This document shows positions 4,647-60,951 of a DNA stretch of 64,000 bases, piece after piece. A model generated the notes under the pieces. The model was not told the DNA's origin and ran no database searches. It worked only from the letters and a program-made list of their open reading frames with translations. Location of the stretch: the NCBI GenBank assembly GCA_004369045.1, contig ML213509.1:1122858-1186857 (forward strand), written 5' to 3'. A program made the position numbers and the translations under genes. How positions within the stretch are numbered: position 1 is the stretch's first letter; every line of letters starts with the position of its first letter. The DNA is from Heliocybe sulcata (lineage: Eukaryota; Basidiomycota; Agaricomycetes; Gloeophyllales; Gloeophyllaceae).

Positions 4647-5062
4647 GTCCGCGCAGCAGGCTAGAGTGGACTAGTGCGTCTGGTGATAGTGTACTCTCCA
4701 GGAGACAGAGAACGGGCGAACAGAGGGAATTACTGGGAATTACAGAAACTGTCGTCTCACGGCGTTCGAAGACGCACGCTAGCGGCACAGCACTCCCGCC
4801 GAGGATCCAATTAGTGCTTGTACTGTAATCGGTCAAGGCCAATCTTATTTGTTATGCCTTGCATTGTGCAACCCAGCGAGTGTAAGCATTTTCCGTCCTT
4901 CGAAGACTTACGAATCTCAAAATTTGCGGTCGCAGCATCATGAACTGGAGCCGCTGACGTTGGCCAAATTCCAAGTAGGAGAGCTTTGGCTAAATATCAC
5001 CTGAACTTGATACTCGATCGACCATTCCCGCTGGCGATATACAGGCATTGCAATCTATCATC
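4647..5062. promoter_or_regulatory. Divergent promoter region, gem1 (-) and F-box/WD gene (+)
   Basis: A 416-bp spacer separates the two start codons, so both promoters must lie here. I cannot point to a clear TATA box. The region is otherwise featureless. Confidence 0.5.
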
Positions 5063-6896: not shown

Positions 6897-9800
6897 TTAT
6901 GATGCAGGTGTAACTTGCTGAGATTGTGAACGAGTAGCCCAACTGAAGAGTTGCCGCATGTCGCTCGCTGGTGGTGTATCAGCAGGCTGTCTCGGCTCAA
7001 CGAGCAGACTAGGTGGCGGTCAGCGGTATCCATGGAAAACGAGCCTCTTAGCTTACCTGCGCCGGTATAAATCTTGGAGATCGCCACTAGACTTAGATCT
7101 TTCGAAAGCTGAGTGCAGATACTCCTGTGCCTCCGATATTTCCTTCAAGTTGTAAGGCACTTGGAATCCAATCATGTCTATTTCTGGACATTAATACGGA
7201 CGTCAGGCTGGCAGCAGCTAGGCACTGACCTTGCACGATTCTATGCAACTTCTGATATTTGTTGAAATTAAGAAGTTTCTTTTGGGGCGCCAAAGGAGAT
7301 GCACGATGGGAGGGGTTGCCCTCACGACAGAATGTGATGTCAGTGAGATAGAGACCTGGGAACAAGTAATGAGCACTGCATCCTGGGATTAGTGAAAACG
7401 GAAAGATGCCTACCAAGGAAAGGCACCGCTGGCGGGGCAGTGTTGCGAAGACGAGATCGATACTCGTGATAATTACGTGCATGATCCGCCAACTTCCGCA
7501 GAGACTCCAACTGGGCCTTGTTCTTCTGCGGCACTCCCTGAAAAGACATATACGTGAATACGGATCAAATATTATCCTGCAGCGACGGCTTACCGTCCAA
7601 GTGAGATGCAGGCGCGAGATAGTAGAAGAATCCAAGGCTGCCAATATTGACCGAGAGGTACTAAAATTGTTCAATCCGGTACAGCGCTGTGGACTTCACT
7701 TAGCATCGCGAACGTTCATCAGAGAAAATGAACACCTACATCGGCAAGCTTGATAAAGAACTTTACGAGACCAACACGCTTCTTCATGTCCAGCTCATTC
7801 AAGATACTCTCAGCAACCCAACCCGTAATGACAGTACTGAGCGAAGTCACAGCCTTGATGCTCTTAGGAGACGTTGTGCCTTCCTGCCCGATCTCCAGCA
7901 GCTCCTCGGGCCGAATGGCGCAATAAAGATCGCACTCCATCAGCGTCAACTGGCGCGCAAGCTCAGTAGCATCGAATTCCGTTATCGCAATAGAACTGAA
8001 GCTCTTGCTCCTTAGCGATGAGAGAAGACTCTTATTCATTTGCGGTCGAGGGGTCTCGGAAGGCACAGAAAACGGCGGAGGAACGGCAGCGCCGCGGTCA
8101 GCCATCCGGTCCCACTGCAGATCCTTGTCCTGACTGCGGGCGACTATCAGTTCCTGAATCCGCTGCGCTGGGCCAGGGAACATCCGCGCAACAGCGTCCC
8201 GATTGAAAGTCGCCAACGCAGGCAACACCGACTTGTCCGTAGAAGCACGCCAATTCGCCTCAAGCCATTTCGTGATGAAATTCGAGACTCGAAGCCGTAC
8301 TGGCATGCCCTTCCGCTGTTGCCAAACGTACACATCCTCTTGAGAAAGATTCGCCGGGGCATGAAGGCTGTACCGCGCGATAATAGCATCGAGAAGGTCA
8401 GCAGGTGAACAAAATAGACGAAACGTCGCCCAGAATACATCCGAGAGCATACTGTCCACCAGAGAATCGTGAGGCGTCATCTTCTCTACCAGAGCTTGGA
8501 GTGTAGCACCAACAAGCTGACCGTCCGCATTGTATGCCACATCCTCGAAGGAGTGATCATGAGACAGCATCCAAGACAGTGGGTCATGTCTTGGAAGGTC
8601 AGAGGACGGTATGGCAGGTAGGTCCCCACTGATGAGCTTCTCCTCCAGACCGCTCGCAGAAGCATGACTATGGCTGCCTTCCCACGTCATCTTGTCTTCT
8701 TCAGTACGAGCGCTAAGCGGGCTGGGACTCTGCACCGTCCCTGGCAGAGGATCTGACGGGATATTCAGAGGCGGCAATACGGGCGGTCCATCGCGTGGTT
8801 GTGACGATCGTGCACGACGTCCCCCGTCCAGACTTGCCAAAACTGGCCGAGTGTTGTCCGCAGGACTCTGAGGCGAATTCTTAAAAGTATCTGGTGCGTC
8901 CGTGTCCGTAGACATAGTCGGTGGTAGGATGCTCCGATCCTCATCCCTGGCATCCAAGTACTGCTGACCAATAGTGAGGTGCGACTCGCCCATCACTTCG
9001 TCCATGACAGCCTCTACACGAGCACTTGGAACGGTAGGACTTGCTCCCCCGGGATCAGGTAGGTAAACAATGACCTGCTTATCTCCCATAGTCGTCCGAT
9101 TCAAGAACAGTTTAACAGCAGCCACACAATCCGACCCAGCCTTCAGCGCCCCAGTCGCCGACCTCAACAGCGCTTGCTTCTCATCCTCCTCCGTCATGCT
9201 CAACCCATTACCCACGGTAAGCATGCGCACCGAGTCCGCCAGCGACGTCGCCACATTATACAGCCCGTCCCTCGCCGCTCTCAGCTGGCCCAGCTTATGC
9301 GGCGGAAGTCCAGGGTGCTGCATAACAGCCTCGACGATCGTCAGCAGCTTGCACACCATGTCCACCACCTCTCTAACCAAATCGTACATGTGCCCGTGGC
9401 TCGAGGCGTGCGACATGCGCGAATGGGAGTGCGCGTGCCCGATAAAGGCGGCAATGCTGGACAGATACTGGTCATGCGTACGGCGAAGCGCGTCGAGCAC
9501 CTCTGACGCGCGAGTAGGGCCGCTCGGGAACGCGTGCATAGGAGGCGTCTTTACCGAGTCCCCAGATGACGAGGAAGACGAGGAGCTGACACTGCTGACG
9601 GACAGCTGGTTGCGCTCGTGGCCCTGATCCGTAGGACGCCTCCGCAACTGACTCTTCGGTCGCGGCGGGTCTTTCGCAGCGCCCTGCAGTGGTGGCACAG
9701 GCGGCACAGGCCCCTCTCGTGCACTCGATGATTTGCGCTGCGCCCGCAGGTCCCCCATGCTCCGTGCGGCCCGAGGCGTCGTCGTCGTCGCCTCGCGTTG

Positions 9801-11004
9801 ACGAGCCTGTGATTCCTGTACGTCGCCCGTCTTCGTCCGTCGCGGCTTAGGCCTCTCACCACCGCCTGGGCCCTGGTCCTGATTCAACTCGCTATCCCCG
9901 CTATCAGAAAGCAGACTCCCGTCTGAAGTCGAGTTCCGTCGGTCAGGCAGCTCGATGCCACATTGCGTAGCAGTAGTAAGGAATTTACGGCAGTGTACGA
10001 ATAGGTTCCCCGCGAGCTTAAGCATCGATTCCGTCTCAAACTCGGCTTTGTCGTCGTCGTCGATCGTCTCGCTCGCTTTCTTCGTTTGGGAGACCAGGGC
10101 TGCAAGTATAGATAGGACCTGTCCGCGTTGTTGTGCGAGCTGTGCGAACTCCTTAAGACGCGGTGCGTCGCGTTGCAGGCATTGTAACGTGCAGAGCATG
10201 GCCCGCACGGAGACAATGATGGCTGCCGTCGAGGCCTGGAAGTGGGATATTCGGTTTGCACGGACGGAAGCCTGTAACACGGACATGCCATGAAGCAGTG
10301 AGGCCATGAGAGGCGGGCAGTAGGAGTCGAACTCGGAGGAGTTGACTTCCGTGGCAAACTTGCTGTGCCGCGGGGACGGTGTACTGACCCATGAGGTCAC
10401 GGAGGCACTAGACTGGGTATGAGCGTGACCAGGACGCCAACGCTGGAAGGCAGTTACATCGCAGTTGTTACGAAGTTGGGGGAAGATCACTTACTGAACT
10501 TCTCGGCAATTCCTCCTCCTTTAGTGAGGTCACGTGAGTCGAGACGTAGTTACTGGGGAACCACCCTCGTCTCCCCTCCAGCTCTCCATCCCACCAGCCG
10601 CTAGAATCACGGTTGAGGACGCGAATGATCTGTCCAGCTCGGAAGGGCAAGTAAGTCCCGTTAGACGAGTGAGGGACATAGTCATGCATGGCAAGCACGA
10701 AATCAGCAGAGGCCCGAGGCGACGTCGCTGCCGATGAAGTCGATGCTGATTTGGATGAATGGTGTTTGGATGGTCCGGCAGATGCTTGTTGAACGGGGTG
10801 GGACGAGCGAGATTCAGATGTAGCCGATGAAGAAGTCGAAGCAGATGAGGGGCTGCGCATGCGGTTCAGAGAGTCCGCGGATAATCCGTGTTTCGAATGT
10901 GCAGCACTTGGGGGATGTGCGCGAGCTGCGGTTTTGCCTTTCCCCGAGGTAGGGCCAGCCGTCCGGGGTACGGAGGTGTCGATCCTGAGCCCTGCGAGAG
11001 GCAT
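6897..11004 (-). CDS. SH3-RasGEF guanine nucleotide exchange factor (Cdc25 class)
   Basis: The protein has about 1250 residues and activates Ras by GDP/GTP exchange. In fungi this feeds the cAMP-PKA pathway and morphogenesis. The first ~100 residues are Ser-rich. An SH3 domain then reads ALHDY-like MHDYVPHSSNGTYLPFRAGQ, with the WWDGEL and GWFPSNYV signatures (residues ~103-158). A long disordered, charged middle follows. The RasGEF_N (REM) region is near 8530-8260 (FRLFCSPADLLDAIIARYSL). The catalytic CDC25 domain starts with FDATELARQLTLMECDLYCA near 7960. It continues through LNNFSTSRSILAALDSS and FLGLYLTDITF, and ends with EISEAQEYLHSAFE. The last exon, after a 46-bp intron, ends QVTPAS at 6897. 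An in-frame stop just upstream of the ATG supports this start. SH3 plus REM plus CDC25 is the standard layout of fungal Cdc25. Confidence 0.93.
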
Positions 11005-12469
11005 GGCGATGTCGCGCGGATGCTGAGGCTAGAAAACAGAGCACGTCTGATGTCCAAGACGCTCGAGGAGGAGCGAACCGAGACTCGTGATCAGTACGTC
11101 TGCGGCGTCCTCAGTCTCCTCTACCGCCAAACTCACATCAGCAGGAGTAATGAGCAGTGCCCTGACTACGGACGCACGAAGAATCCAGTCCAGCCCGAAT
11201 GCCTCCCGATCGATGGCAAATGCCCCTACTGGGCAGACGAGATACAAAGTCAAGTAAGGTATCGGAGTCGAGAGAGAGAATATCCGGAGACGGTTGAAAT
11301 GATGTGCTGCGCGAAGTTGTTACAGGACGGCAGAGAGATTATAGGCGTCGCGCTCGTTGCTGGCAGTGGCAGAGGGGATAGAACGCGTATGAGAGCGCAG
11401 AGGGTGATGGACGCGTAAAGGAGGGAAACTTAATGCATCCCGAAGTTTGGAATTGGCAGAAGTTTGGAATTGGGCAAACGAGACGCGGTGCATTGCGATC
11501 AGTCGGCCACGTGCGTGTCCGTTTACCGAGATCCTTCCATAGATCCCTTTCATCCTTCCATTCCTCCTAATGACAAGTGCTGTCGGGCTGGACGATATTT
11601 AGTATGTACTTGCATGGAGGAACCATATAATGGGTTACTTTCTGCTCTTGTGAGCTGCTTCTAATGAGCATGAGAGGCGTGTTGCTATGGGAAGCATTTT
11701 GGTATGGGAATCGGGAATGGATATGTAAATGTTCGAGCTTCCGGCCAATCTGCGCTTCCATATCCATTCCTCGCGCAGAACTGTCGCCGGATCATTTCTT
11801 TTATGGTCCGGCCTATGGGAGATAAGAGACTTTATATTTCTGAGCTTGCTTTGCTCTCATCCGCGTCTAGGGACAACTCAATTTAGTGGCAAGGTGATAA
11901 TTGGGACTTCTGACTGACACCGCTGACAGGCCGGCTATAGAAGGTCAGGTATCATGTACGGTACGCGAGATGGTCGTGGTCAAAACCTAGCTTGCGACTG
12001 ATGGCTGACTTTGTGTGTGGCACTAGTAGTAGAGAAGTCTCCTGTAATTCCCATATAAGTTGCCCGCGCCAAGCTGGGATGCGTCGAATGAAGCCTAGGG
12101 AAAAGAAAGCGGTAGCAACGGCAGAGGGAGGTCTGATGGCTGAAACGATGAGTGAAGGAACACGGAATCGACGCAGCCCAATGCTGGGTACGACTTCGTG
12201 GTATTGGGGGCCGGTGCGGCAACGGCCGTTGTGGGTCCCGATGTGGCCTCAGCCACAATCTGGTGGCAGCCAATCACAAGCCGCAACCGGGATTAAGCCG
12301 CAATCCGGGCTACACCATACACACTAGGTGACACAGGGCAGAATGTATGTAAATAAAATGACTGCGTGCCCAACGAGTAAGTGAAAGCAAGGGGAGACAA
12401 AGTGATAGATAGCTGAGGCGTCGTGCTAAAGAGTGAGCGAGGAGCGGACTCGCGCACCTAGCTTGGCTA
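11005..12469. other. Long gene-free stretch upstream of the RasGEF gene
   Basis: This stretch of about 1.46 kb lies between the RasGEF start and the transposon. It must contain the RasGEF promoter. Short ORFs on both strands have no recognisable domain and look random. A direct repeat gaagtttggaattgg occurs twice near 11442-11475. I support no gene here. Confidence 0.5.
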
Positions 12470-20383: not shown

Positions 20384-22021
20384 CTACTCATCCTCCTTCC
20401 CCGTCTCATCTCTTATCCCTCCCTCCGCAAAGTTCAAGATCCCCGCCATATCCAACATCTGCACGATCTGCTCCGCCTCCGCTACCGGCATACTCCCCAA
20501 CGCCTTATTCACCTCATCCAGCGAGTTCTTCTGCAGCGCCTCCTGCATGTTCTCTGGGAAGCCCTGGAACACGTCCCACCGCATCTGCAGCGCCTTCCGT
20601 ACCTCCTCCACGTCCATGTCTTCCGTGCCGGGGCCTTCGAGACGCAAGTCCTCGGGCGGCGGGCCGTCGGGGACGTTGAAGGAGATGGTGGTGTTGGGGT
20701 CCTCGGCGACGAGCTGGATTTGCTCTTGGCCTTCGGACGCGGTTTGCTCCTTCGTGATGGCGACGCGCTGGACGAGGTGCCCGTAGGTGTCTTCGACGTC
20801 TTTGACAAAGACAGTCTCGGCGCGCTTGTCGCCTGCGATCATCCTGGTCACATACATAACGATTAATAATTGGAGTCGGAAGGAAGGAAGGAGCACGCTC
20901 ACTTCTGGAAGAACAGGCGCACGCCGTCCTTGCCTAGTTTGTCGCAGTATTGCAAGAGGAGACTCTGGTGCACGCATTGCTTCGCGTACTTGCTCTGCCC
21001 CGCATTCTCCGCGTTGAACGCGGCGACCAGGAGCGCATCTGACGCGCCCGGGACGACAACCTCGCGGTGCGCCTGGATGAACTCGAAGGACTGTTGGTAG
21101 GCGTGCAGGGGCAGTTTCGAGAAGGCTTCGAGCGAAGGGGTCATCTCCGGGAGCTCCAAGTCCTCATCGTCTGCGTCTGCGGTGGAGGGGGCAGTGGAGG
21201 ATGATGCACCGGCAGCAGCTTTCGGGTTGAGAACTTCGTACTCGGTGGTGGTGGTTTTCTGTTTTGGCTTGGGGTCGGATACGGCACCTTTGACGGGTGC
21301 GGGTTCGGGTTTGGGTGGCACGTACTGGTGGGGTGAGCACAGAACGGTTGTGATAGTAGTGAGGCGGACATACGTGATTCTCCCAACCTTCGTGAATATC
21401 GTCGCTCGTAATCTTCTTGTTCTGCTCCTCCTCCAGATCGTGCAGCTCTCCCCTCAACTTCTCGGTATGTTCCCCTAACCGCTTGACATGCATGTCCAGC
21501 TCTGCCACCAATGTCTCCCCGAGCTTCGGATCGTCCTTCTTGACACCCTTCTTCTTCGTCTCCTCGTACACCTGGAGCAGTAAGCTCAAAATCATGGCAT
21601 CGTATGTGGGCTGATTCGGCGCATTCGTGGGTGGGGCATCTGGCGAAGGGTTTGTGCGGAGGCGTTCAACCAGGGAGGAGAAGTATTCGGGTCCGTCAGA
21701 CGCGACTTGGTCCTTGATAGCTATGAGGCGAGGGTGGAGGACTTCGTTGCATGCGATCTCGGGCTTGATGTGGTTTATGCGCTGCTTCCTTGCCTCGCGC
21801 TTTTCATGGATGTCGCGCTGCTTCCATCTGCGTTGCGGTTATGGATCACTCTAAGGACAAGCTTGATGGCTACGAACCTGATTAGAGACCGCTTGTCGAC
21901 GTTGGGGTGGCCCTCGATGTCCGAGTCGTCTGAAAGCTAACGGACGTCATTGCTGCTGCGTTGCGGAAGGAACCTAAAGGCGTACCTCCAGGTTATCCCA
22001 CTTTGAGTAGTTCAGGGGCAT
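20384..22021 (-). CDS. cdc37: Hsp90 co-chaperone Cdc37
   Basis: Cdc37 loads protein kinases onto Hsp90. The N-terminus spliced from two exons reads MPLNYSKWDNLELSDDSD, closely matching the invariant family start. It keeps Ser14 in the LSDDSD context that CK2 phosphorylates to switch on kinase-client binding. HPNVDKRSLIRWKQRDIHEK follows, with a long coiled coil. The Hsp90-binding domain starts around PEMTPSLEAFSKLPLHAYQ and includes AENAGQSKYAKQCVHQS. The C-terminal domain (EEVRKALQMRWDVFQGFPEN, about 20620-20560) is complete and the end is acidic (GKEDE). Four or more introns occur, including one that falls between Glu12 and Leu13. Length is about 470 residues, between the human (378) and yeast (506) proteins. 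Confidence 0.96.
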
Positions 22022-31179: not shown

Positions 31180-34100
31180 CTAAGAGCTGCAGGAGACCAG
31201 CAGATGATTGAAAGAAGGAGTCGTGTCGAGGAGTGACTGCCATTGCGAAGTCTGATACCGATGGTGCAGAGGTTCAAGTGAAGAGCAAGCCTGCATACCA
31301 CGGCGGGATAGATCCTCGTCCCCGGAGTCGTCGCCATCCTTGTCGTCTGGTTGGCTTGACAAAGACGATGCAGAGCCGCCAAGAGATTGGACGTCGACAA
31401 GAAGTGACCATTCGCCCTCTCGGTATGCCGCGTGCACAGGTTCCAGAGAGCCGTGAGTAGCGATGGACGCCTCCGTCGTGCGCGATAAATCTGGGAGGTT
31501 GGCCTTTGCGACGGTCAGAGCGGAGAGAGGGCGGGCAGGCAGGCAGAACACGCTTGAATCTTCCCCCTCGATCTCCACATCGATGTCCCTAGCGTCACCT
31601 TCCTCGTAGTCCCAATGGCTTGAGGACGACCGGGTACTCGTGAACGGCGGCTCGCCATCGATGACGCACAATTCGGGGTCGTCGCCATCTTCGTCATCAT
31701 GTTGGCTTAACGAAGGCGGTGCACAGTCGTCAGGAGGCTGGATGTCGACAAGAGGGAACCATTCGCGGCCTTCATACGTGGCATGAAGACGTTGGAGAGA
31801 GCCATGAGTAGCGATAGCCAGCTCCGTAACTTGCGATGAGCCTGAGACATTGGTGCCTGCGACGGTTGCAATGGAGAAAGGAAGGCCGAGTAGACATGAC
31901 CTGCTGGAAGTGTCCTCTTCGATCTCCCCATCAATCACCATGGCGTCACCTTCCTCGTAGTCCCATTGGCTTGAAGACGATGAGGTACTCCTGGACGACG
32001 ACTCACTGCTGATGACACGGAATTCGTCGTAGGACGATGCAGAGTCTCCAGGAGGCTGGATGTCGAAAAGACACGACCAGTGATGGTCTTCGTATGCGGC
32101 GTGGACAGGTTCGAGAGAGCTGTCGGTAGTACTGACCAGTTCTGTGATCCGCGACGAGAGTGAGATGTCGGGCCTTGCGACGGTCGGGATAGAGAGTGCT
32201 GCGGCAAGCAGAGGAGGCCTGCTATAGTGCTCGTCCTCAATTTCCGTAAGGACCTCCGCGTCGTCACCTTCCTCTTCCTGTCGGCTGGTCGAAGGTGAAC
32301 TGCTCACAAAGGGTGGCTCGACAGCAGTCAGGCGCACCCATTCTCCGCTTTCGAGTCGCGCTTGTAATAGATCCAACGATCCGTGGCAGGGCAGGCCGCC
32401 CTCTAGGTGCGTTGAGCGGTGCTCGTGCTCGTGCAGACCTTCGGGCAACGGGTAGGTCTCCTTACGATGGCACTCGCCGTACTCCATATCAACCTCTACA
32501 TCCTCATCGTCGTTGTCCCGATGACTTGGCGAAGGTGATACCAGATCGAAAGAAGGACCGATGTCGGCAAGAAGCGACCACTGGGTCCCTTGGCATGCAG
32601 CGTGAAGACGGTCGAGCGAGCCGTAGGTGCCAATCTCATTCGCGCTGTTGTGTGCACTGACCTGAGGCGAGAGGCGCGGTCCGGCCATGGAGGATGTGGT
32701 GCTGACCTCCTCGTTGATTGTCTGATCGACTTGCGCGTCGTCATCTCCCCATTGGCTTGACGAAGGTGAGATACTCCCGAACGGCGGCTCGACATCGCCA
32801 AGGCTCGACCAGTCCCCGCTCTCGTACCGTGCATGCAACACCTTCAAGGATCCATACGATGAGAGGCTGCTCTCGGGATGGACTGACGAGCCAGGAATCT
32901 CCTCCAGTTGCTCCTCATCGAAGCCGGCGGTGGGGGATACGTCCTTGTCAACATCGTCGTCACGGTTGCCCAATACGTCAGCGGCGAGGTCGCAAAGGAA
33001 CCCAGGGTTGACGGGTGCGGCGAGGTCTTCCGCATCGGAGATCGATGGGCCAGGGGGTGCGCTTGGATGCGAGGACTTGACGGGGCCAGTTTCGATCCTG
33101 GCGGGGACACCTTGTTCTCCTTCTTCCAAAGCCTGAGCAGCCCGCACAACGTCGTTCTCGAATTTGCGTCGCCCTGAGATCTCGCCGTCATCGTCAGTGC
33201 ACGAGGAGGGAGGCCAACGACTGTCATTCGTGCTCGAACTCGACATTGGGACATTTTGGGGAGTGATGTGCGGAGGGCAGGAGGTCGCCGGTGGACCTGA
33301 CAGTAAGAGGCTTTCGATCTCAGCCTCAGAGTGACGCTCCTCAACCTCGCGTTCCGCTTCCTCGAGGGCTTGAGCAGCTCTCGCGCAGTCGGCTTTGAAT
33401 TCGACTTCCCAGTCGTCATCGTCGTCGAGATAACTGACGTCGAGTATGGGCGGGGCGCGCGCGTTGGCATCGTCGATGCTGGACAGCACGGCGTGGGCAT
33501 CGTCAAGGCCCTCCTGCAGTAGCTTGCGTACTCGTGCCAGATCCGCAGCTATACGAGACTCCTCTGCCTGGATATCTAAAGCAACATGTAAGGAAATACT
33601 GCTGTATAGACGGTAAAAGATACCCACCTTCACATTCATCGGCATGCCTACGCTTCGCTCGGAGTATTCCTCGTCTGAGCCTCCTCATATCCTCTAATCC
33701 ATCTTCTCTCTCCTCCTCATCCCAGGACGCACGCGGGTGAACGTCGACAACGGCCTCGGCGTTAAGCTCGGGCAAAGGGTCCGCTGTATTCCAGAAGTTC
33801 GCACCAGGTAGGCCAGGTCGATCCTCATGGCGTCGGTGCTCTGCATCTGCTAAGAGACATGGGTTCAGAGCCGAACAGATGTACAGTCAGCTGAGCACTC
33901 ACATCTATGCTCCTCATTGTCTTCGCCCTTACGCTCGCTTCCTTTATCGCTGCCGACGTACAGCACGTCCGCGAACTGAGCGCCAAGTAGTGCGGACACG
34001 GAACGTTCCTCTACTTGAGCCACGGCAGTGTTGCAACTCTCTTCGTCTTGTGCATCGTAGAATGTCGCCTCGACTTCATCAATATGCTCGCTGTGTTCGT

Positions 34101-34945
34101 CCTCGCTGTGAATGCTCGAAGGTGCTTCCTTGTCACCCTGCACTTGGTACTGCTGGGCAACATTGAGAGGAACATCGACGACGTCAGATTCGATCCCCGG
34201 AAGTGCTGGCACGGAGCATATGACATTGCTGGTTTGACTAGGACGGACGGCGGAAGGCACAGGGGTTGTTAGATGAGCTGCACTCGACTAAAAAAGTGTC
34301 ATTGGATGTATCCAAGCAGCAACGGAAAAGTAGACCCACCGAATGCACGAGACGACTTACGAAGGTGCCTTGGCACAGCTCGACTACCGCGAGGAGGTCC
34401 TGCACGATGTCTCGCAACGCCGGGACGGCGGACGCGAGTGCCGCGGCGACGAAGGATGCGATGAGGATGCGGGTGATCACGGAGTCGAATGCGGGAAGCT
34501 ATAGCGCTCGGTGAATGAGAGACATGTCCGAAAAGTAAACGAAGCCGCTTACAGTAGAGAGGAAGGGGAACACGCAGAACAGGAACTCTGTCACCCATGC
34601 TACCGAAAGGAAGCCGCCTTGTCTGTGCCGGTTGAAGGGGCCGAGCGCGGTGACGAGAACGAAGACACCTAACACGAGGACCAGCGACGCAATGTCGCCA
34701 TCGCATGGTCCCGCCCCGAGAGTACAAGTCGGCGGTTGTTGGTAAGCACTGGGATGGAAGAGAACAGTCCTGGTTGGGGACGGAGGAAGAGGGTCGGCGT
34801 GAAGGAGGGGAGGCAACGTCCCAGACCCGCCAGGGTCGGGGGCGAAGAAAAGCCCAAGGCTGTCGAAGGTGCGACACACCAGACGACGCGCCCAGGCAAT
34901 GTGAATGCTTGAAATGCTTTCTTTCGAGATTATGTCTTTGAACAT
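31180..34945 (-). CDS. Membrane-anchored acidic protein with seven novel SL-LHA-W repeats
   Basis: Five exons give about 1175 residues. Exon 1 (34945 to about 34546) begins MFKDIISKESISS and contains RTFDSLGLFFAPDPGG, LGAGPCDGDIASLVLVLGVF and AWVTEFLFCVFPFLST. Exon 2 adds a third hydrophobic helix, LIASFVAAALASAVPAL. The rest is hydrophilic: an acidic linker, a helical EESRIAADLARVRKLLQEGL, then two related RAAQALEE segments. Next come seven copies of a ~24-residue unit with consensus GSLexLHAxYexgeWsxLxD (example HGSLEPVHAAYREGEWSLL), at about 32860, 32625, 32380, 32125, 31810, 31455 and 31265. Acidic linkers separate them, often with SSSQWDYEEGD. The frame ends FNHLLVSCSS at 31180. The N-terminal module is paralogous to that of the kinase gene at 57400-59766. 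I know no named family for the repeat. The topology suggests a membrane-tethered scaffold. Confidence 0.8.
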
Positions 34946-36093: not shown

Positions 36094-38118
36094 TTACACG
36101 CTCCCCCACCCAAGCACACCCTCCCAGCACCGCCACATCCTTTCGACAACCCTAATCTTCTCCCCCCTCCCCAACCCAGGCTCCTCCAAATCCCTCACAT
36201 CCTCCAAGAACCCCTCCCTCACCCTCCCCGCCGGCAACCACGCCTCCGCATACTGTCTCAGATGCGTCAGCGAGAGCAACAGCAACCCAGACGTCAACGG
36301 CGGGATATCCTTCTCGCTGTTCCCTTCGTGAGGCGCGGAGGACTTGGACTCAGACGCGGGCTGGAATATGAGAAGACGTTCGATGCGACGCATATCTGCT
36401 AGGACACCCTCGCGTCTCCTTCGTCCGCCGAACCGGCCTCGTCCGCGCCCACCGGTCCATAAGCGGATCAGGGCACCAGCGCCGACATACACTACCGCCA
36501 GTGCCGGTGCAACACCGACAAACGCGAACGTGAGTTCCTGAGACTTCAGCAGCTTATCAATCCCCGACAGCGCTTGGTCAATGTCGACCTGTAGCATTTC
36601 TATCAGACACACCATTCGAAGGCAGCCGAAGAGAACATGAACCCACCTTCGCCTTCTGCACCTGCACAAACAACGTCCTCACCAACGTCCCCGCCACCGC
36701 GCTCTTAATGGGACTCTTAATATCCTGCTCATAAATCTCCATCACAGGCGTCAAATCCCCCACCCGAACCTTGCTCGCCAGTTCATCGAGCTGCTGCGCG
36801 TCGTACGCGAGCTTTTCCCTTGCGAGCGAGAGCACCATACGCTCCAGGGACTGCAAGTCCGCTTCGACGCCCTCCTTGCGCACAATCACGCCGCCCTCGC
36901 CCCCGGCACGGACCGTGCGCACGATATCCCGAACAGGCTCAACAATCCACCCATTCCAGAAGCCCCGAACGGTCTCTACCGCTTGCCTCGCCAGCTCATC
37001 CAAGCTCTCGCGCTCTGCCCAGAACCACTTAAACGCATACAGTGCCAGGGGAGGGCCGAGTATCAGCCTGGGCCACATAAGTGTGAGCCGAGGGGGCCGG
37101 TGCAGGTCGGCGGGCACCGGGGCTGGCGTATGCGCTGTGAGGGTAGACAGCGACATTAAGAGGCCGGGCGAGGCGGTTACGGACGTGTTTGTGACGAGGG
37201 ACTGCATGATCGACACAAACTGCGTGAGCTTGGTTTCGTCCCCGGATCGCAAAGCGCGCTCGAGCCAGGGACGCATCCCGCTTAGAGCCCCGAGACGCTC
37301 GGCCTTGTCGTTTCGGATCTTCTCGAGCGACTTGCGTTTGAGGAAGCATTCTTGATGCGTAAGGGAGATGGGTAGGGCAAAATAGTGGAGGAGGGTCTGG
37401 TACCAGGAGCGAATAGATGTAGATGCGGTAGGAAGCGCTGTGAGCAGGTGCGGCTCCGTGTGCAGGTGGGGAAAGAGAGAAGTAGTGAGGAGGTTGGGCC
37501 GTAGTGGAGAGGCGTTGTGTGCAAGCGTTTGGAGGGCGTGTAGGATAGAGGACGGGCTGAAGATTTGGCGAGCTTCGAGGGATTGGGTTTGCGAACGGAT
37601 GGTTTGGAGCAGGGTGTGCATCAGATTGACAAGTCGAACGGGCAGGGCTGTGAGGATGAAAGTCTCAGATTCACCAACCCAAGGGAACCAACACGGCACG
37701 TACTCTGCAATAAATACCAGGCTGCATTCCGCCTGGACCTTTCGATCTCGCTCCACCACTGACCCTCGCGCTCAGCCTCGCTCGCTTGGGACAAACACGC
37801 GCTCAAAGCCTCCGCGTACACACCAACTGTGAGCCGTCCCAGGACCGCGACCTTCACGGCAGCATCTTCTTGTGAACCATAGCCTGGTCTCTTAGTTTCT
37901 AGCGACTGGAGATCGTCGACGGTCTTGCGAAGCTGTTCTGGGGACAAGGGCGGCTTGAGTGCGAGTAGAAGAGTGTTAAGTTGGTCAGTTTCTGGAGAGG
38001 GTGGCAGTTCAGGTAGACTCTGAGCGGAGAGACCGCGTTTTGGGACAGGCTTTGGGACGTGTTTCGGGATCGTGGAGAGGATGAGGCCATCGGTTTGGTA
38101 CGCGACAAAGGTAGACAT
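36094..38118 (-). CDS. nca2: Nca2-like mitochondrial protein
   Basis: NCA2 family. In yeast it is an inner-membrane protein needed for correct expression of the mitochondrially encoded ATP synthase subunits 6 and 8. The start is MSTFVAYQTDGLILSTIPKH. An intron after AAWYLLQ leads to LPVRLVNLMHTLLQTIR. The conserved core reads PRLTLMWPRLILGPPLALYA with a membrane helix, then FWNGWIVEPVRDIVRTVR, a family hallmark. QSLERMVLSLAREKLAYDAQ and the segment VMEIYEQDIKSPIKSAVAG follow, then GTLVRTLFVQVQKAKVDIDQ. A second helix is AFVGVAPALAVVYVGAGALI. The C-terminus reads LPAGRVREGFLEDVRDLEEP. Length is about 640 residues, normal for the family. It is divergent from ctk2 across 279 bp. Confidence 0.93.
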
Positions 38119-54808: not shown

Positions 54809-56134
54809 TCAGAAAATAGGTATAAAGTCCTGGATTCTATCCCTCGCATCCTGCGCGATACATTCCGCAATCCACGTAATACTTCGGATCTCCTGCTCCT
54901 TGAGCTTGAAGTAGCTATAGAAAACGGAGTACTGGAACTGCTGCAGGAAGGACTGCTTATTCAAGTGCACCTCCTGTCGGAAGAAACGATCCTCCAGGTC
55001 TGCCGCCACTGAAGACTCCTCGTTGAAGAGGTCATCACCAGAGCCATTGCCATTCGCGCGAGGCGCACTGTGCGATCCAGAGTCGAAGAATGACTTATAT
55101 TCCGGGATGTAGTCGCACGCCTGTCGCACCTGTTCGACGTCATCCGCGCGTGCAAGAGTGTTGTTGCCCTCCGGGTAGAGACGTCCAATGGTAGGGAACA
55201 ATTTTGCCCGCTGCTCCTTGGATAATTCAGTCCCAAACGAGTTGATAGTGATGTTGATTGTCCTTCGGTCAGCCTCGAAAGCCAGGATGCGGTGCATGAC
55301 GTCGTATGTGGGATCTCCTATGGTGTGGCAGAAGCGGTCAAAATCTTCGAGATACGCCTTGTAGAGCGTATTCCGGATAATTTCAATGTTGAGGTCGTCA
55401 AGATCGGCAGCGGAAAGACACTCAATGAAATATGGTGCTACCATGGCCTCGTAAGAACATAGGCAAAGGGAGGAGTGCTCAGACCATACCTAATGGTGTT
55501 TCGACCAGCACCGTCCGGTACAGGTCTTCCACATTCGTCGCTACGCATAACGCAGGCATAGTGTCGAAGACGCCCAACGGGTGACAACGCTGCAATAACT
55601 CGTGCGTATCTCGCTCGTGCAACGTCCCGGTGATCAAGAGGACGACATTGTCGATCATGTAGCCATAACTGCGCGAAACAGATCTCAGCAAACTACCAAG
55701 AGTCTAGTCGAGTATGAACGTACGTGATGTACTCCAGGAAGGTACTCAATGGCTCCACTGCATTCGTCCGAATAAAATTAAACTGGTCGACCAGTATTTG
55801 CGTCGCCTTGTCTGCTATTGTCGATGTCGAGATGGGTGAAGGCTCGTTGGCCAGGAAGTTGCCGTAGTCCGTCGCTGACAGTTGCATTCGGAGGTCTGTC
55901 CATCAACCACCCAAATGCTCTTCAGTTACATGGAAAATCAAGAACAGACGTGTCAATACCATCCAGTGTCTCGCATTGCGTCAAATTCGAATAATGGCTC
56001 TGGGTAAGGATGCCGGCCTTGTAACCCCTGAGGATGCCTTCCAGGAAGCCGTTGGAGACCTAAGACAGAGTCTATGCGTTACTTCCCACATAACAACCAG
56101 ATAGATGCCATACGTTGAAGAACAGGGCTTCCAT
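54809..56134 (-). CDS. vma6: V-type ATPase subunit d (Vma6)
   Basis: This subunit couples the V1 central stalk to the Vo ring of the vacuolar proton pump. Exon 1 encodes only MEALFFN. Exon 2 starts [20 protein letters not shown], followed by [20 protein letters not shown], all classic subunit d. Later exons read [60 protein letters not shown] and [20 protein letters not shown]. The last exon contains [20 protein letters not shown] and ends [20 protein letters not shown] then [10 protein letters not shown] basidiomycete-type insert ([20 protein letters not shown]) sits in the last exon. Length is about 355 residues, normal for the family. Confidence 0.96.
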
Positions 56135-57399
56135 ATTGACAGAGAACGAGTTCTAGTTTCGGTGAAGCGCTGAGGTTGAGCGCAGTGACCCCCGTAACGG
56201 CTGTAACGTCGACATATGTATGCCGCCGGCTCCCCAAGGGCGCGCATGTGGCGGATGCAGACTCTTTCCCGCCGACACTGTGCAAAGGCTGCGCAGAGTG
56301 AACTATCTGTATGGAATCTCTGTCTCTGAAGATAGAACGAGTATTCTCGGCATGAATCCCTGGAGTGAAGTCAGACTCTGCTCGAATAACGCAGTCTCGG
56401 CATTGCACGACTCAGACCCGACGTACGTGCCAAAGGAGGCATTACAAGATTTAGACACAAACACAAAACGAACGTCCCAAACCAGCATATAAAGTATCCT
56501 GTACGCAAGACTTCTATTCATTGAGAACGTGGTGGAAGGAAGCAAAGATATGTAAGTACTCAAGCAAAGGCTAACAATACAAGGTCATGAGCGCATTCTT
56601 TAATACACGGAGAGGACGGTAGTCCGACATATCACAGAGACAATAGAACAAGACTTCAGGCAAGTAAGTGATAAATCAGCAAGAACTGCAGGGGTGCATT
56701 GTGCAACACACGAGGACATGGGAGGTATGTCTGAATCACGCATATAGCAGGAGGACGGGGACCGCATGGAAGTCGCAATAGTAGGCGCAGCTCGAAGCAG
56801 CAGAGGCTCGAAGCATTCTATCCCGACGGAGACTCCGACTCGAGACTGTCGATCGGTACGGAGGGAACACCTAACAAAGGTGCGCCGTTGGAAGGGGGCT
56901 GCCGGCGCAAGCAACACACAGGAACGCCCTCTTGCCGTACTCCTGCATGTTATTGAGGAGGGGAGGAAGAGTGCGATGCCACGAGCGAGGGACTGGCCCT
57001 TCAGGCGTTGCAATTCGTACGGAGCTGTACGCGCATCATGGCCCACGCCGTAGCCGCCATGAAAAGTGACAGTGTCGCTGGAGCTGCGCGATATTAGAAC
57101 TGAACAATTCAAAGGGACCTAGACAGCATACCAAGGTCTCCCCAAGGTCTCGCTATGGCGACCACTTGCTGCCAGATGGTCCATTATGAATGGGCTGTGA
57201 AGCTGGATACCATTTCTGCCCCTAGACGTGTATTTGTATTGCTTTTGACTCGTCGTACGGAACCTTCCCGAGACATAGGGAGGAAGCGAGACACTTCATA
57301 GGAACCGCCATGGACGATGCGAGTGTGGCTGAGGATATATAATGCCTGAGCAGAGGAGATTGTAAATCAGCAGTGACCGGGATTCATGCGCGTCGATAC
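56135..57399. other. Intergenic, promoter of vma6 and 3' flank of the kinase gene
   Basis: About 1.26 kb. A minus ORF at 56600-57112 (170 codons) has no domain and odd composition. No repeat or RNA gene is recognised. Confidence 0.5.
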
Positions 57400-59766
57400 T
57401 CACTGTGACGGGAGCAAGGAAAGACTGAACTCCGCAGATGAGCAATCCGAGTCAACGTCGAATTCATCAACAGCCATAGGTTCAGAGGCCTCCATCAGAA
57501 ATTCGTGCTGGAGACTATGGGGTCAAATCACGATAAGCATCAAGGTCAGTACACAACTCACCTCGAGAAGCTCGGCAGCCGTCGCTCGGCTTTCGACCTC
57601 GACGCAGAGACAAGCACTCAAGAAACTCTTCAGCTCCGGGTTCAGCGTTTCGTCCGTCGTGATCGCGGGTGAGTCGCTGGTTGCGATTAGGTGAAAGGCC
57701 TGTGATGGCTCTTCATACGCATAGGGAGGCTGAATCTCGATCATCTCGATGACCATAATACCAAGGGACCATATGTCAACCTTCAGGCCGTAAGCATCCC
57801 CTTTGACAACTTCTGGCGCCATCCAGTGCAGAGTACCCGCAACGCCTGTGACCTTGGAATCCTGGTTGGGAAGTTTCACACAGAGACCGAAATCCGCTGT
57901 ATGACAAGGGATGGAAGACTTAGTTCCGATAAGGGCCAGGAAGGAGCAGCACCCACCGATTTTGACATCGCCTTGGGCATTCAGAAGTACATTTTCCGAT
58001 TTGATATCTCGATGAATAATATGATGGGCATGTAGGTAGGCCAGCCCTTTACATGTCTGGGGAGCTAAGAGCCATGCGTATAGGAACGGAGGGTGCGACT
58101 CACCTCGAGCGAGATATATGCGATCTGGTCATCCGTAAGACCGTTGTTCAGGATGACATCCCTCAGGGGCCCGCCGTCCATATACTCCATGACCACCCAA
58201 AGTTCCATACTGTCGGGAAGGAAGGCATCCAAGAAGTTCACAATGTTAGGGTGTTGTGATTCCTTCATCACAAGAATTTCGTTGACTATGTCCTCGCGTA
58301 GCTGGTACGATAGGTCCACTTCCTTGACAGCGACCTTGTTCTCCGTAGCAAGCGCCTTTGCCGCATATACGCGGCCGAAAGCTCTGCATATGTGGTCAGT
58401 CGTTCGAAACCTTCGGTTGAATGTTCAGATATCGTAGAACTTACCCTTCGCCGATCTTTTCGTTCCTCCAATACAGTGTCTTCGGATCGACTGCGCTGAC
58501 CACGCGCCTTACTTTTGCTATAATACGTTCCTGCTCATCAATGTCTGATGGCGTCACCATCACAGCCGGCGCAGAAACGAAATTCTTGGCTCGCCGAAGG
58601 AGCTTAGCGCGGGAGGGAAAGACGACTGGAAACATCATAAGTATCCGGAGGACGAACTAACGTGTACAGTATAGACAGACTCACAGCGGCATGGTTCCTG
58701 GCGTAATCTGTTGCGTCCATGGAGCTTATGGCCATCAACGACAATGCTCGCGGAAGCGGGGCTTGCGAGTGGGCAGGACAGAACGATCTCGGGGCTATGG
58801 TTGCCCTGCACATTGTGAAGTATCATTACTTCTTTTCCGTCAACAGCCCTTTTGTCACCATTCTGGGCATCGTCGCACTTGTCCCCTTGGAAAGCCTTGA
58901 TGTCACAAGCAGCATCCAAGCGTATCTCCTCATCACTGTCGCTGTCGCTGTCGGCGTCGAGCGACGCGTTTTCGGGGTTTTTGAGATTGGATTGGATGTC
59001 TTCAGAGACCGTGTCCGATAGGTCTCCACTAGAGAGAACAGTACTGCTGGTTAACGATGTGCGAGTAGCAGAGGACGGTGGCACGGTCAACGAATGTTTC
59101 TTGCACTATTAGAATGTCAGCTGGTAGACTTAGAGCTAAGACAAGATGCACGCTCACCGAAGAGAAGACAGAGCTTGCTTGTATGCAAAACACTGTTTCG
59201 ACTACCGAGCCAACTTCGCAAAGAAGGTCTTGAACTGTAGAGACAGCGGATACCAGCGCCAGGGCGATAAGAGAAGTCAGGACGGTCCATGTGAGGGCGG
59301 GGCTGAAAGCAGAGAACTACAAATAATGTATATAAGAGTCCCAATCGAGGGGTAAGAAAGGACTCACGGTAGACAGGAGAGGGGATACATAGAGGAACAG
59401 TTCTGTTGCCCAGACTACCGAAAGGGACCCGCATTGTCTGATTCGGTTGAACTTGAAGGGACCGAGCGCGGTAAAGAGACAGTAGACACCGATAACAAGG
59501 ACCAGCGAGGCAATGGCATCGTCGCAAGGTCCAGCGCCGACGGTAGCAGAAGGTGGCCGTAGATAGTCAGCGGGCGACCAGGGTGTCGTCTTCGTCGGGG
59601 ATGGAGGAGGGAGGATAGCGCGAAAGAAGTGAGAGAACCACCCGAATCCACCAGGGTCGGGGGCTAAGGGAACACGGAACCCGTCAAAGGTGCGCTGCAC
59701 CCACTGGCGAGCCCAAGGAAAGTCTATAAGATTAATACTGTACAGTGGCTTAAACTCCCTGTACAT
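57400..59766 (-). CDS. Membrane-anchored STE20/PAK-like protein kinase
   Basis: About 640 residues. Exon 1 (59766 to about 59366) begins MYREFKPLYSINLIDFPWAR and holds APDPGGFGWF, VGAGPCDDAIASLVLVIGVY and VVWATELFLYVSPLLST; exon 2 adds LTSLIALALVSAVSTVQDLL. Three hydrophobic helices thus precede an acidic linker (DADSDSDSDEEIRLDAACD). The next splice keeps frame into a complete kinase: KIGEGAFGRVYAAKA (glycine loop, across an intron), VAVKEVDL (ATP lysine), HPNIVNFLDAF, VVMEYMDGGPLRDVI, HHIIHRDIKSENVLL (catalytic Asp), IADFGLCVK (DFG), VAGTLHWMAPEVVKGDAYGL. The MAPEVV and WSLGIMVIEMI patterns are STE20/PAK. No CRIB domain is seen. It ends AEFSLSLLPSQ. The membrane module is paralogous to that of the gene at 31180-34945. 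Confidence 0.85.
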
Positions 59767-59810
59767 TGTAAAAGTCAAAATGGATGGGGCGTGGATCGCG
59801 TCCCCTAGCC

Positions 59811-59817
59811 TTTTATA
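59811..59817 (-). promoter_or_regulatory. TATA box of the membrane kinase gene
   Basis: TATAAAA on the minus strand, 45 bp before the ATG at 59766. An upstream in-frame ATG at 59847 lies before this TATA box, which is why I take the downstream ATG as the start. Confidence 0.75.
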
Positions 59818-60951
59818 CCCGATCGAAGCTATCAGGTCGACTGCCACTCGCCGTCGTCGGCTTCAGTAATACAAGCTGCTCACCGTTATGTTAACGGAAA
59901 GTGAACTCTCAGTCTGAATTCAAAGTGCAGTGCAGTGCACTCATAGCGACGATATTCATGCTGCAGGAGAGTGCCACTTGAGACTGGTCAGTACCAGTGG
60001 AGGAGCACCATCGGCCGTAAAGTGACCCCTAGCTTCTCTTCGACTATTCCAGAGATGCAAGCGTCAACACGAGGAGATGGCTCTGCGCGCTTGGAGGTCG
60101 GGTCGAAGGGTCTCGATCACTGGGTCGGCGGGGACCTTCGCGAAAGCCCGCTTTGTAGGATCACTTTCACCTCAATGATACGTAAAGAAGAAGCCAGGGA
60201 TGCTAGCCCTTTGATCTTGGACCCTTCCGATGCCGATCAAAGCCGTACGCGAGCCCCGGCAGGATACCATGAGGTAAACACGCAGCCCTACTGCAGCAAA
60301 GCCTCTGGTCGATGTCCGTCATGGAGGTAAACTGCAGTGATGAAGCAGAAGCTTACGAGTAAACAGAGTAAGAGGCTCGCGGAGCAACAGTATGCAGTAC
60401 CTGGCCGTGCTCCATTCGCCCGGTATTTTCATGCAATCGGACAGCGGGCTTCTTCCAACAAGCTGTAACGCAGGATTTTCAATGAATAGCTCATTAGCTT
60501 AGAAGGTCAAGAGTTCAACGTTCAACGTTCAGTCCTCATTTCGCGAGCAAGATACGGAAGAGAAAGCAGTAACGGCCGGGTGACCGCTTTCAGCCAAGTA
60601 CGTAGTCTACTCTCGGCCGGCCCCGGTCCAATCAGACATCAGGACATAGACCTGGGGTGTACCGCAAAGAATCAACGGTCCTTATGTTAGCATCGCATGC
60701 ATATACTCTAGCTGTAATAGGTGTAAAGTGTATCCACAAATGCAGGATCCTTGAACAAGCAATCTCGGAGCGTGAGCAAGTATAAACAGTGGCGGGTATG
60801 AGGGGTATGGCACAGTTCATGACTTCTATGATATGATGTCGCGCTAATCAAGAAGAGCTAAGTAAAGATCATATTAGTCAGAGAGACGGTACGAATACAA
60901 CGATAGAGATAAACCTACCTCGGGGAAAGCAGGCCATAATCTCTGAGCCCG
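59818..60951. other. Intergenic upstream of the kinase gene
   Basis: About 1.13 kb containing the upstream kinase promoter and the BTB gene 3' flank. A short direct repeat AACGTTCAACGTTCA lies at about 60515. ORFs are random-looking. Confidence 0.5.

Follow-up and report, generated by a model that had tools for sequence, protein, structure and literature searches.

On the minus strand of the window, by which we mean the whole stretch of 64,000 nucleotides that was analysed here, a predicted gene extends from position 59766 to position 57400 and combines a hydrophobic N-terminal module with a PAK-type protein kinase. Its eight exons join into the coding sequence of a single protein of 660 residues, which starts with an ATG at 59766 and is terminated by a TGA that ends at 57400. 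The frame is open over all 660 codons, with no stop or frameshift. Each of the seven introns (51, 52, 59, 61, 47, 60 and 54 nt) runs from GT to AG, and the donors read GTGAGT in four of them and GTGAGC, GTAAGT and GTGGGT in the other three. An earlier sequence-only reading had placed the gene at these coordinates, and our re-derived gene model agreed exactly with it, also with respect to the motifs, since APDPGG was located at residue 35, GAGPCD at 77, GEGAFG at 385, VAVK at 404, HRDIKSEN at 495, DFG at 515 and APE at 540. The single open frame across the eight exons likewise supports the claim in that reading that the module is joined in frame to the kinase. The features of this gene, hereafter the fusion gene, are the following.

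59809 to 59817, minus strand: core promoter box TATAAAAGG, 51 nt upstream of the ATG of the fusion gene
59368 to 59766, minus strand: exon 1, with the start codon, the N-terminal part carrying PDPGG and GAGPCD, hydrophobic helix 1 (aa 84-102) and most of helix 2
59158 to 59316, minus strand: exon 2, with hydrophobic helix 3 (aa about 140-158)
58685 to 59105, minus strand: exon 3, a polar, partly acidic linker (aa 187-326) with a phase-1 donor resembling that of the module family
58626 to 58684, minus strand: intron 3, the predicted fusion junction, 59 nt, GTGAGT...CCAG, phase 1
58445 to 58625, minus strand: exon 4, with a putatively Cla4-derived linker (aa 327-357) and the start of the PAK kinase, including GEG of the glycine loop
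58104 to 58383, minus strand: exon 5, kinase N-lobe with the ATP lysine (VAVK) and the alpha-C glutamate (NEILVM)
57957 to 58056, minus strand: exon 6, catalytic loop HRDIKSEN
57562 to 57896, minus strand: exon 7, with DFG, the activation loop SKVTGVAGTLHW, APE and the C-lobe
57400 to 57507, minus strand: exon 8, end of the kinase domain (HEFL), a short tail and the TGA stop

The window also encodes a V-ATPase AC39-type subunit at 54812-55489 on the minus strand (Pfam E 8.7e-54), NCA2 at 36581-37771 and the N-terminal part of Cdc37 at 21167-21838, and we therefore regard it as ordinary housekeeping territory. A further frame at 7722-11028, on the minus strand, carries RasGEF_N, RasGEF and DUF7783; the SH3 frame detected on this strand at 10471-11028 may be part of that Cdc25-like gene. 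Elsewhere in the genome, two pairs of kinase loci gave identical scores: C10:1109879-1114458 and C38:1493-6072, which points to an overlapping or duplicated contig, and C6:1429340 and C6:1442631, which points to an inverted duplicate pair.

The N-terminal module matched no Pfam family, neither with residues 1-346 at E values up to 1 nor with residues 1-379 at E values up to 10, in agreement with the earlier impression that it is unfamiliar. Searching the same genome with residues 1-186 returned the fusion gene and four further copies with about 50-52% identity, all on contig C7, giving a family of at least five copies with the fusion included. The positions of these copies, and the features of the one within the window, are listed below.

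contig C7, position 34945 of the window, minus strand: module copy
contig C7, position 1208826, plus strand: module copy
contig C7, position 1226097, minus strand: module copy
contig C7, position 1050358, minus strand: module copy
33903 to 34945 of the window, minus strand: window paralogue, with exons 34945-34553, 34498-34361 and 34287-33903 and no kinase
31183 to 33684 of the window, minus strand: open frame of 834 codons downstream of the window paralogue, probably an acidic repeat-like tail

Within this family PDPGG was invariant in all five copies, while GAGPCD was present in four and read DAGPVD in the fifth, so that the "conserved words" of the sequence-only reading are indeed conserved among the copies of this genome. 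The TATAAAAGG box was also found upstream of the ATG in the four paralogues, at distances of 52, 53, 53 and 72 nt. Three of these paralogues form a near-identical trio with long acidic tails, namely the copy at 31183-34945 of the window (minus strand) and the loci L069 and L070. The DNA of their tails is 79-91% identical between copies, and they are therefore regarded as recent local duplicates on contig C7. Judged by eye, a stretch like SSYGSL..HARYESGDWS..LGDVEPPFG repeats in these tails. For exons 1-2, dN/dS amounted to 0.34-0.41 between the fusion and the trio and to 0.21-0.25 within the trio; for exon 3, values within the trio were 0.24-0.43, and the comparison with the fusion was at or close to saturation. 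The remaining copy, L068 (C7:1046001-1053500, minus strand, from about base 4750), has a divergent module followed by further hydrophobic stretches, with no kinase seen, and its acidic part contains repeated EEVYFDAED-like units. Pfam gave two matches for this copy, both below the cut-off, and nothing more; the window paralogue of the module had no match at E values up to 10, and the frame of its tail had none either. Furthermore, the five-row module alignment and two peptide patterns were used to search for relatives elsewhere, and none of the 59 pattern stretches in viral contigs or of the 136 in bacterial and archaeal genome contigs was confirmed. Because at least five paralogues are present in its own genome, the module is best regarded as a fungal gene family that was apparently caught in the fusion, and not as a kinase-specific domain.

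In the C-terminal part of the protein, Pfam detected a Pkinase domain at residues 380-629 (E 1.8e-69). The best 60 of 91 matches of residues 358-635 to solved structures were headed by PAK1-3, with PAK1 at the top (E 5e-84), above PAK4-7 and MST-type kinases. Glycine loop, catalytic lysine, alpha-C glutamate, HRD, DFG and APE are all intact, and together with these two matches they substantiate the earlier statement that the catalytic domain is complete. A PAK-type kinase domain is thus present together with the pre-kinase helix, as in the PAK family. Also encoded in the same genome are a PAK of the Cla4 type (contig C11) and one of the Ste20 type (contig C8). Over the kinase domain, the fusion was identical to this Cla4 at 182 of 271 positions (67.2%), to this Ste20 at 138 of 269 (51.3%) and to PAK1 at 137 of 271 (50.6%). 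In a tree of six rows, which included two outgroup rows and from which one row apparently in the wrong frame and one long-branch row had been left out, the fusion grouped with its own Cla4 with a support of 100/100, the branch length being 0.58 for the fusion and zero for Cla4.

The introns in the kinase part of the fusion gene lie at KIGEG/, ISLE/TCKG, VKI/ADF and AAELLE/H (the slash marks the intron), in phases 2, 0, 1 and 0, and all four match introns of Cla4 in both place and phase. Ste20 of the same genome lacks the intron at ISLE/TC and has a different one at IMAI/EMIE. Because identity, tree and shared introns, one of which is absent from Ste20, point in the same direction, the kinase half appears to derive from the CLA4 gene of the same genome and is best read as a copy made at the DNA level. 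The "STE20/PAK-like kinase" of the sequence-only reading is thus indeed PAK-type, but it can be narrowed to a Cla4 derivative rather than a generic STE20 kinase. Across 270 codons, the fusion kinase and Cla4 differed at 55 first, 44 second and 147 third positions, with a pN of 0.176 and a pS of 0.750, the synonymous sites being saturated. The third-position excess and the low pN suggest that the kinase protein was held by selection, although part of this record may predate the fusion.

The transition between the two halves could be followed to a single intron. The fusion gene has phases 0, 0 and 1 at the ends of exons 1-3, as do the window copy and those at 1208826 and 1226097, and these exons measure 399, 159 and 421 nt in the fusion versus 393, 138 and 385 nt in the relatives. 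Intron 1 occupies the same place in the alignment of the fusion and its relatives, while intron 2 falls into a gapped stretch in which they are about two residues apart. In all four genes, that is, the fusion and the trio, exon 3 ends with an arginine codon plus T/GTGAGT. Beyond this third donor the relatives continue into their long acidic tails, whereas in the fusion gene intron 3 is followed by exon 4. The resemblance to Cla4 extends through this exon nearly up to its 5' end, the similarity to the Cla4 linker reaching aa 330. Indeed, PSRAKLLRRAKNFVSAPAVMVTPSDIDE of the fusion aligned with the linker that precedes the kinase in Cla4 with a score reached in only 1 of 2000 shuffles, and there was no significant alignment of the exon 4 linker with the Ste20 linker (756 of 2000 shuffles). 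As the donor is family-like and the Cla4 similarity begins almost at the start of exon 4, we place the putative breakpoint of the fusion in intron 3, the donor of which is probably the old donor of the membrane-module family. The frame of the Cla4 linker is open for 209 residues ahead of the first kinase intron and shows no sign of an intron; the acceptor of intron 3 was therefore probably recruited. The introns of the fusion and its paralogues had no significant sequence similarity, and the exon 3 proteins aligned weakly, with a score matched in 43 of 2000 shuffles, so the case for a shared donor is built on phase, order and context. No second genomic match was found for the junction (58470-58760) or for the upstream region (59767-60700) in a search that skips common words.

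That the module and the Cla4-type kinase reside in one gene is, judging from these features, very probable. Exon 3, the region in which the earlier reading saw a possible split, is open across 140 codons, and only 21 of 5000 Markov simulations stayed open. The codon scores were derived from the 26 longest open frames found at kinase loci, and perhaps not all of these are true frames; with them, the frame used had the best score of the six in seven of the eight exons, including exon 3, with small margins; exon 6 was the exception, showing no preference for its frame. Conceivably, the locus could instead hold two adjacent genes, a module gene with its end within or beyond exon 3 and a short gene for a Cla4-like kinase that starts from an ATG in intron 3 or exon 4. 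When intron 3 is retained, the frame stops at aa 342, and at this stop there is an ATGATG in the frame of exon 4; a second in-frame ATG ahead of VTPSDID could be the start of a separate kinase gene, and retention of intron 2 would yield a membrane protein of only 228 aa. It would also fit two genes that no kinase match was seen beside the other four modules: with the whole fusion as a query, the module alone was matched in the surrounding stretches of 5, 9.9, 9.9 and 7.5 kb. No scored kinase match was nearer to the other modules than the kinase of the fusion itself, or closer than 20 kb; 122 of 352 candidates were scored with the Pfam kinase family and, with the fusion kinase, 127 of 135, such that small matches could escape. 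However, the frames of two such genes would overlap, leaving no place for one gene to end and for a promoter of the next. A TATATA is located in intron 1 at 59334, but no TATA box was seen from after intron 1 to the kinase exons, nor later until past the gene end. Intron 3, moreover, has a strong donor in the phase of the family, and the coding frame of exon 3 runs up to this donor. Neither AATAAA nor ATTAAA occurs anywhere in 57000-60000, and poly-A signals are therefore uninformative either way. As the end of one gene and the start of another would not fit in, we consider two separate genes unlikely.

A single gene might also give rise to alternative products: splicing of intron 3 would give the full-length membrane kinase, retention of intron 2 or 3 a protein with the membrane part only, and the amount of kinase would thereby be controlled by splicing. 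If intron 1, 2 or 3 is retained, the products would be 149, 228 and 342 aa long, respectively, but transcripts with retained introns are usually degraded, and we regard such regulation as rather improbable. Intron retention was observed in T. rubrum pakA, a fungal PAK gene, for which PMC6274995 proposes a CRIB-free kinase product. Intron 2 of the fusion gene (59106-59157), if retained, is read through as a hydrophobic sequence before the frame ends, a possible membrane-only product. For the full-length fusion protein, module and kinase are predicted to share a transcript.

Compared with Cla4, the fusion kinase kept its catalytic residues and lost its regulatory domains. For aa 1-379 of the fusion, Pfam gave no match to a PBD/CRIB domain at E values up to 10, while the same search detected PBD in fragments of the genome's own Cla4 (1.3e-09 and 5.2e-07) and Ste20 (3.6e-26). 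This fits the contrast that the earlier reading drew with known STE20/PAK kinases, which use CRIB or other regulatory domains. A PH domain was not found in the fusion protein by Pfam either; in the own Cla4 fragment it appeared at an E value of 0.00067, under the Pfam cut-off. Because CRIB and PH are both missing, we do not file the fusion as a Cla4, in spite of its kinase closeness and intron positions, and it would be a PAK by descent that departs from PAK and Cla4 in architecture. The activation loop reads SKRATMVGTPYW in Cla4 versus SKVTGVAGTLHW in the fusion. In the column of the PAK activation-loop threonine (Thr423 of PAK1), the fusion has a glycine where its own Cla4, its own Ste20 and PAK1 have a threonine; a threonine is located one position before this column. 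In addition, GTPYW has become GTLHW, with leucine-histidine in place of proline-tyrosine, and the kinase is one residue short beside alpha-C. Judged from its residues, the fusion kinase should bind ATP, and it may be active, though not via the usual PAK switch. Normal PAK activity is not assured because of the lost threonine, the GTLHW and the missing residue. These same changes, as well as the long branch (0.58, compared with zero for Cla4), would be expected for a decaying or non-signalling kinase copy, either a fusion without a selected role or a pseudokinase-like membrane scaffold. This we consider unlikely, as the catalytic residues looked for are all present, the 660 codons contain no stop or frameshift and differences at third positions dominate (147 versus 55 and 44), though partly accumulated in pre-fusion time.

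Anchoring of the fusion protein in a membrane is predicted and, in our view, likely. Mean Kyte-Doolittle values were 2.31 for residues 84-102, 1.41 for 123-141 and 2.04 for 140-158, and the corresponding GES sums were -38.8, -33.4 and -38.0; the prediction draws on these values together with conservation in the paralogues. The "about three hydrophobic helices" of the earlier reading are hence visible as peaks, but the middle one is weak (1.41), though stronger in the window paralogue (1.81). The linker at 293-311 likewise peaks at 1.41, but its GES sum is far weaker (-20.2 versus -33.4), and the fusion kinase, which serves as the soluble reference, has a maximum of 1.34 and a GES sum of -3.2. 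When residues 1-186 were shuffled with their composition kept, at least two segments of 1.6 or more arose in 1780 of 5000 shuffles, and the hydropathy count by itself is therefore not significant. An AlphaFold model of exon 1, based on two sequences, had a mean pLDDT of 41.1, too poor for a fold search; this low-confidence model contains long helices at 80-101 and 110-131, the remaining ones being shorter. Positive residues (K+R) number three in the loop between helices 1 and 2, zero in the next loop and eight in the N-terminal 83 residues. By the positive-inside rule, applied to the short loops, the N-terminus would be outside and the kinase in the cytosol, although the eight positive residues are awkward for an outside N-terminus. 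With two helices only, the kinase could still be cytosolic, with the N-terminus inside.

We propose that a truncated copy of CLA4, extending from the pre-kinase linker to the stop codon and including the introns, landed downstream of exon 3 of a module gene, and that the normal intron-3 donor of the module family is now used together with an acceptor immediately before the Cla4-derived exon. The promoter of the membrane-module family would set the expression of the fusion. The predicted product would have two or three N-terminal helices in the membrane and the kinase on the cytosolic side, a permanent anchor replacing the inputs that Cla4 receives through PH (lipid) and CRIB (Cdc42/Rac). Most likely, the kinase would phosphorylate membrane-near substrates without release by Cdc42/Rac, and the membrane module perhaps tunes it by clustering. 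This account of one gene born by fusion, an event observed once, in one genome, appears reasonably probable as a whole. Signalling by the fusion that is independent of GTPases is more tentative and falls somewhat short of an even chance. Doubtful, finally, is a membrane-resident, receptor-like PAK, freed from control by Cdc42/Rac and lipid, in which the module senses or clusters and switches the kinase independently of the usual phosphorylation in the activation loop; with the topology predicted here, no known ectodomain for a receptor-like kinase was recognised.

Kinase fusions with lineage-specific parts are common in fungi. The PH domain of Cla4 binds membrane lipid and is its normal route to membranes. 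The earlier statement that known STE20/PAK kinases are soluble is thus broadly right, except that Cla4 is normally membrane-bound via this domain; membrane residence as such would therefore not be new, whereas a permanent multi-helix anchor would be. PAK kinases are a standard case of GTPase-controlled autoinhibition: as set out in PMC6274995, CRIB binds Cdc42/Rac and holds the kinase inhibited. If our account is true, a natural PAK without the GTPase switch and the lipid domain, but with a built-in anchor, would be a test of which inputs a PAK needs. It would also illustrate how a new signalling protein can originate when a kinase duplicate merges with a local family of orphan membrane genes, the breakpoint being placed in a single intron, and it would give a first handle on this uncharacterised family. 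The word "transmembrane" is absent from the main text of two kinome papers (PMC5030230 and PMC2838846), the former of which lists a single orthologue each of Cla4 and Ste20 in Wolfiporia cocos. Among the matches listed in the open-licence literature there was no fungal PAK with membrane helices.

Of the known systems, the receptor-like kinases of plants and oomycetes (LRR-kinases) resemble the fusion only in the idea of a membrane part followed by a cytosolic kinase; they are unrelated to it, and the fusion has no recognised LRR and two or three helices instead of one. The fungi studied in PMC2939053 are reported there to have no LRR-kinase receptors, which differ from the fusion in architecture. 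The other four copies of the module family share the approximately 50% identical N-terminal module and the core promoter motif with the fusion, and three of them also the phases of introns 1-3, but where the fusion has its kinase, three copies have long acidic tails and one has further hydrophobic stretches. Ste20/PAKA and human PAK1, a group I PAK, have in common with the fusion the PAK-type kinase and the pre-kinase stretch (VSAVDPKTLYW...), but the fusion lacks their CRIB and the identity is lower (51.3% and 50.6%). The fungal PAK Cla4, with its PH domain and CRIB, shares with the fusion 67% kinase identity, four intron places and phases and the linker from aa 330; in the fusion, a hydrophobic N-terminal module takes the place of PH and CRIB, and the activation-loop threonine is a glycine.
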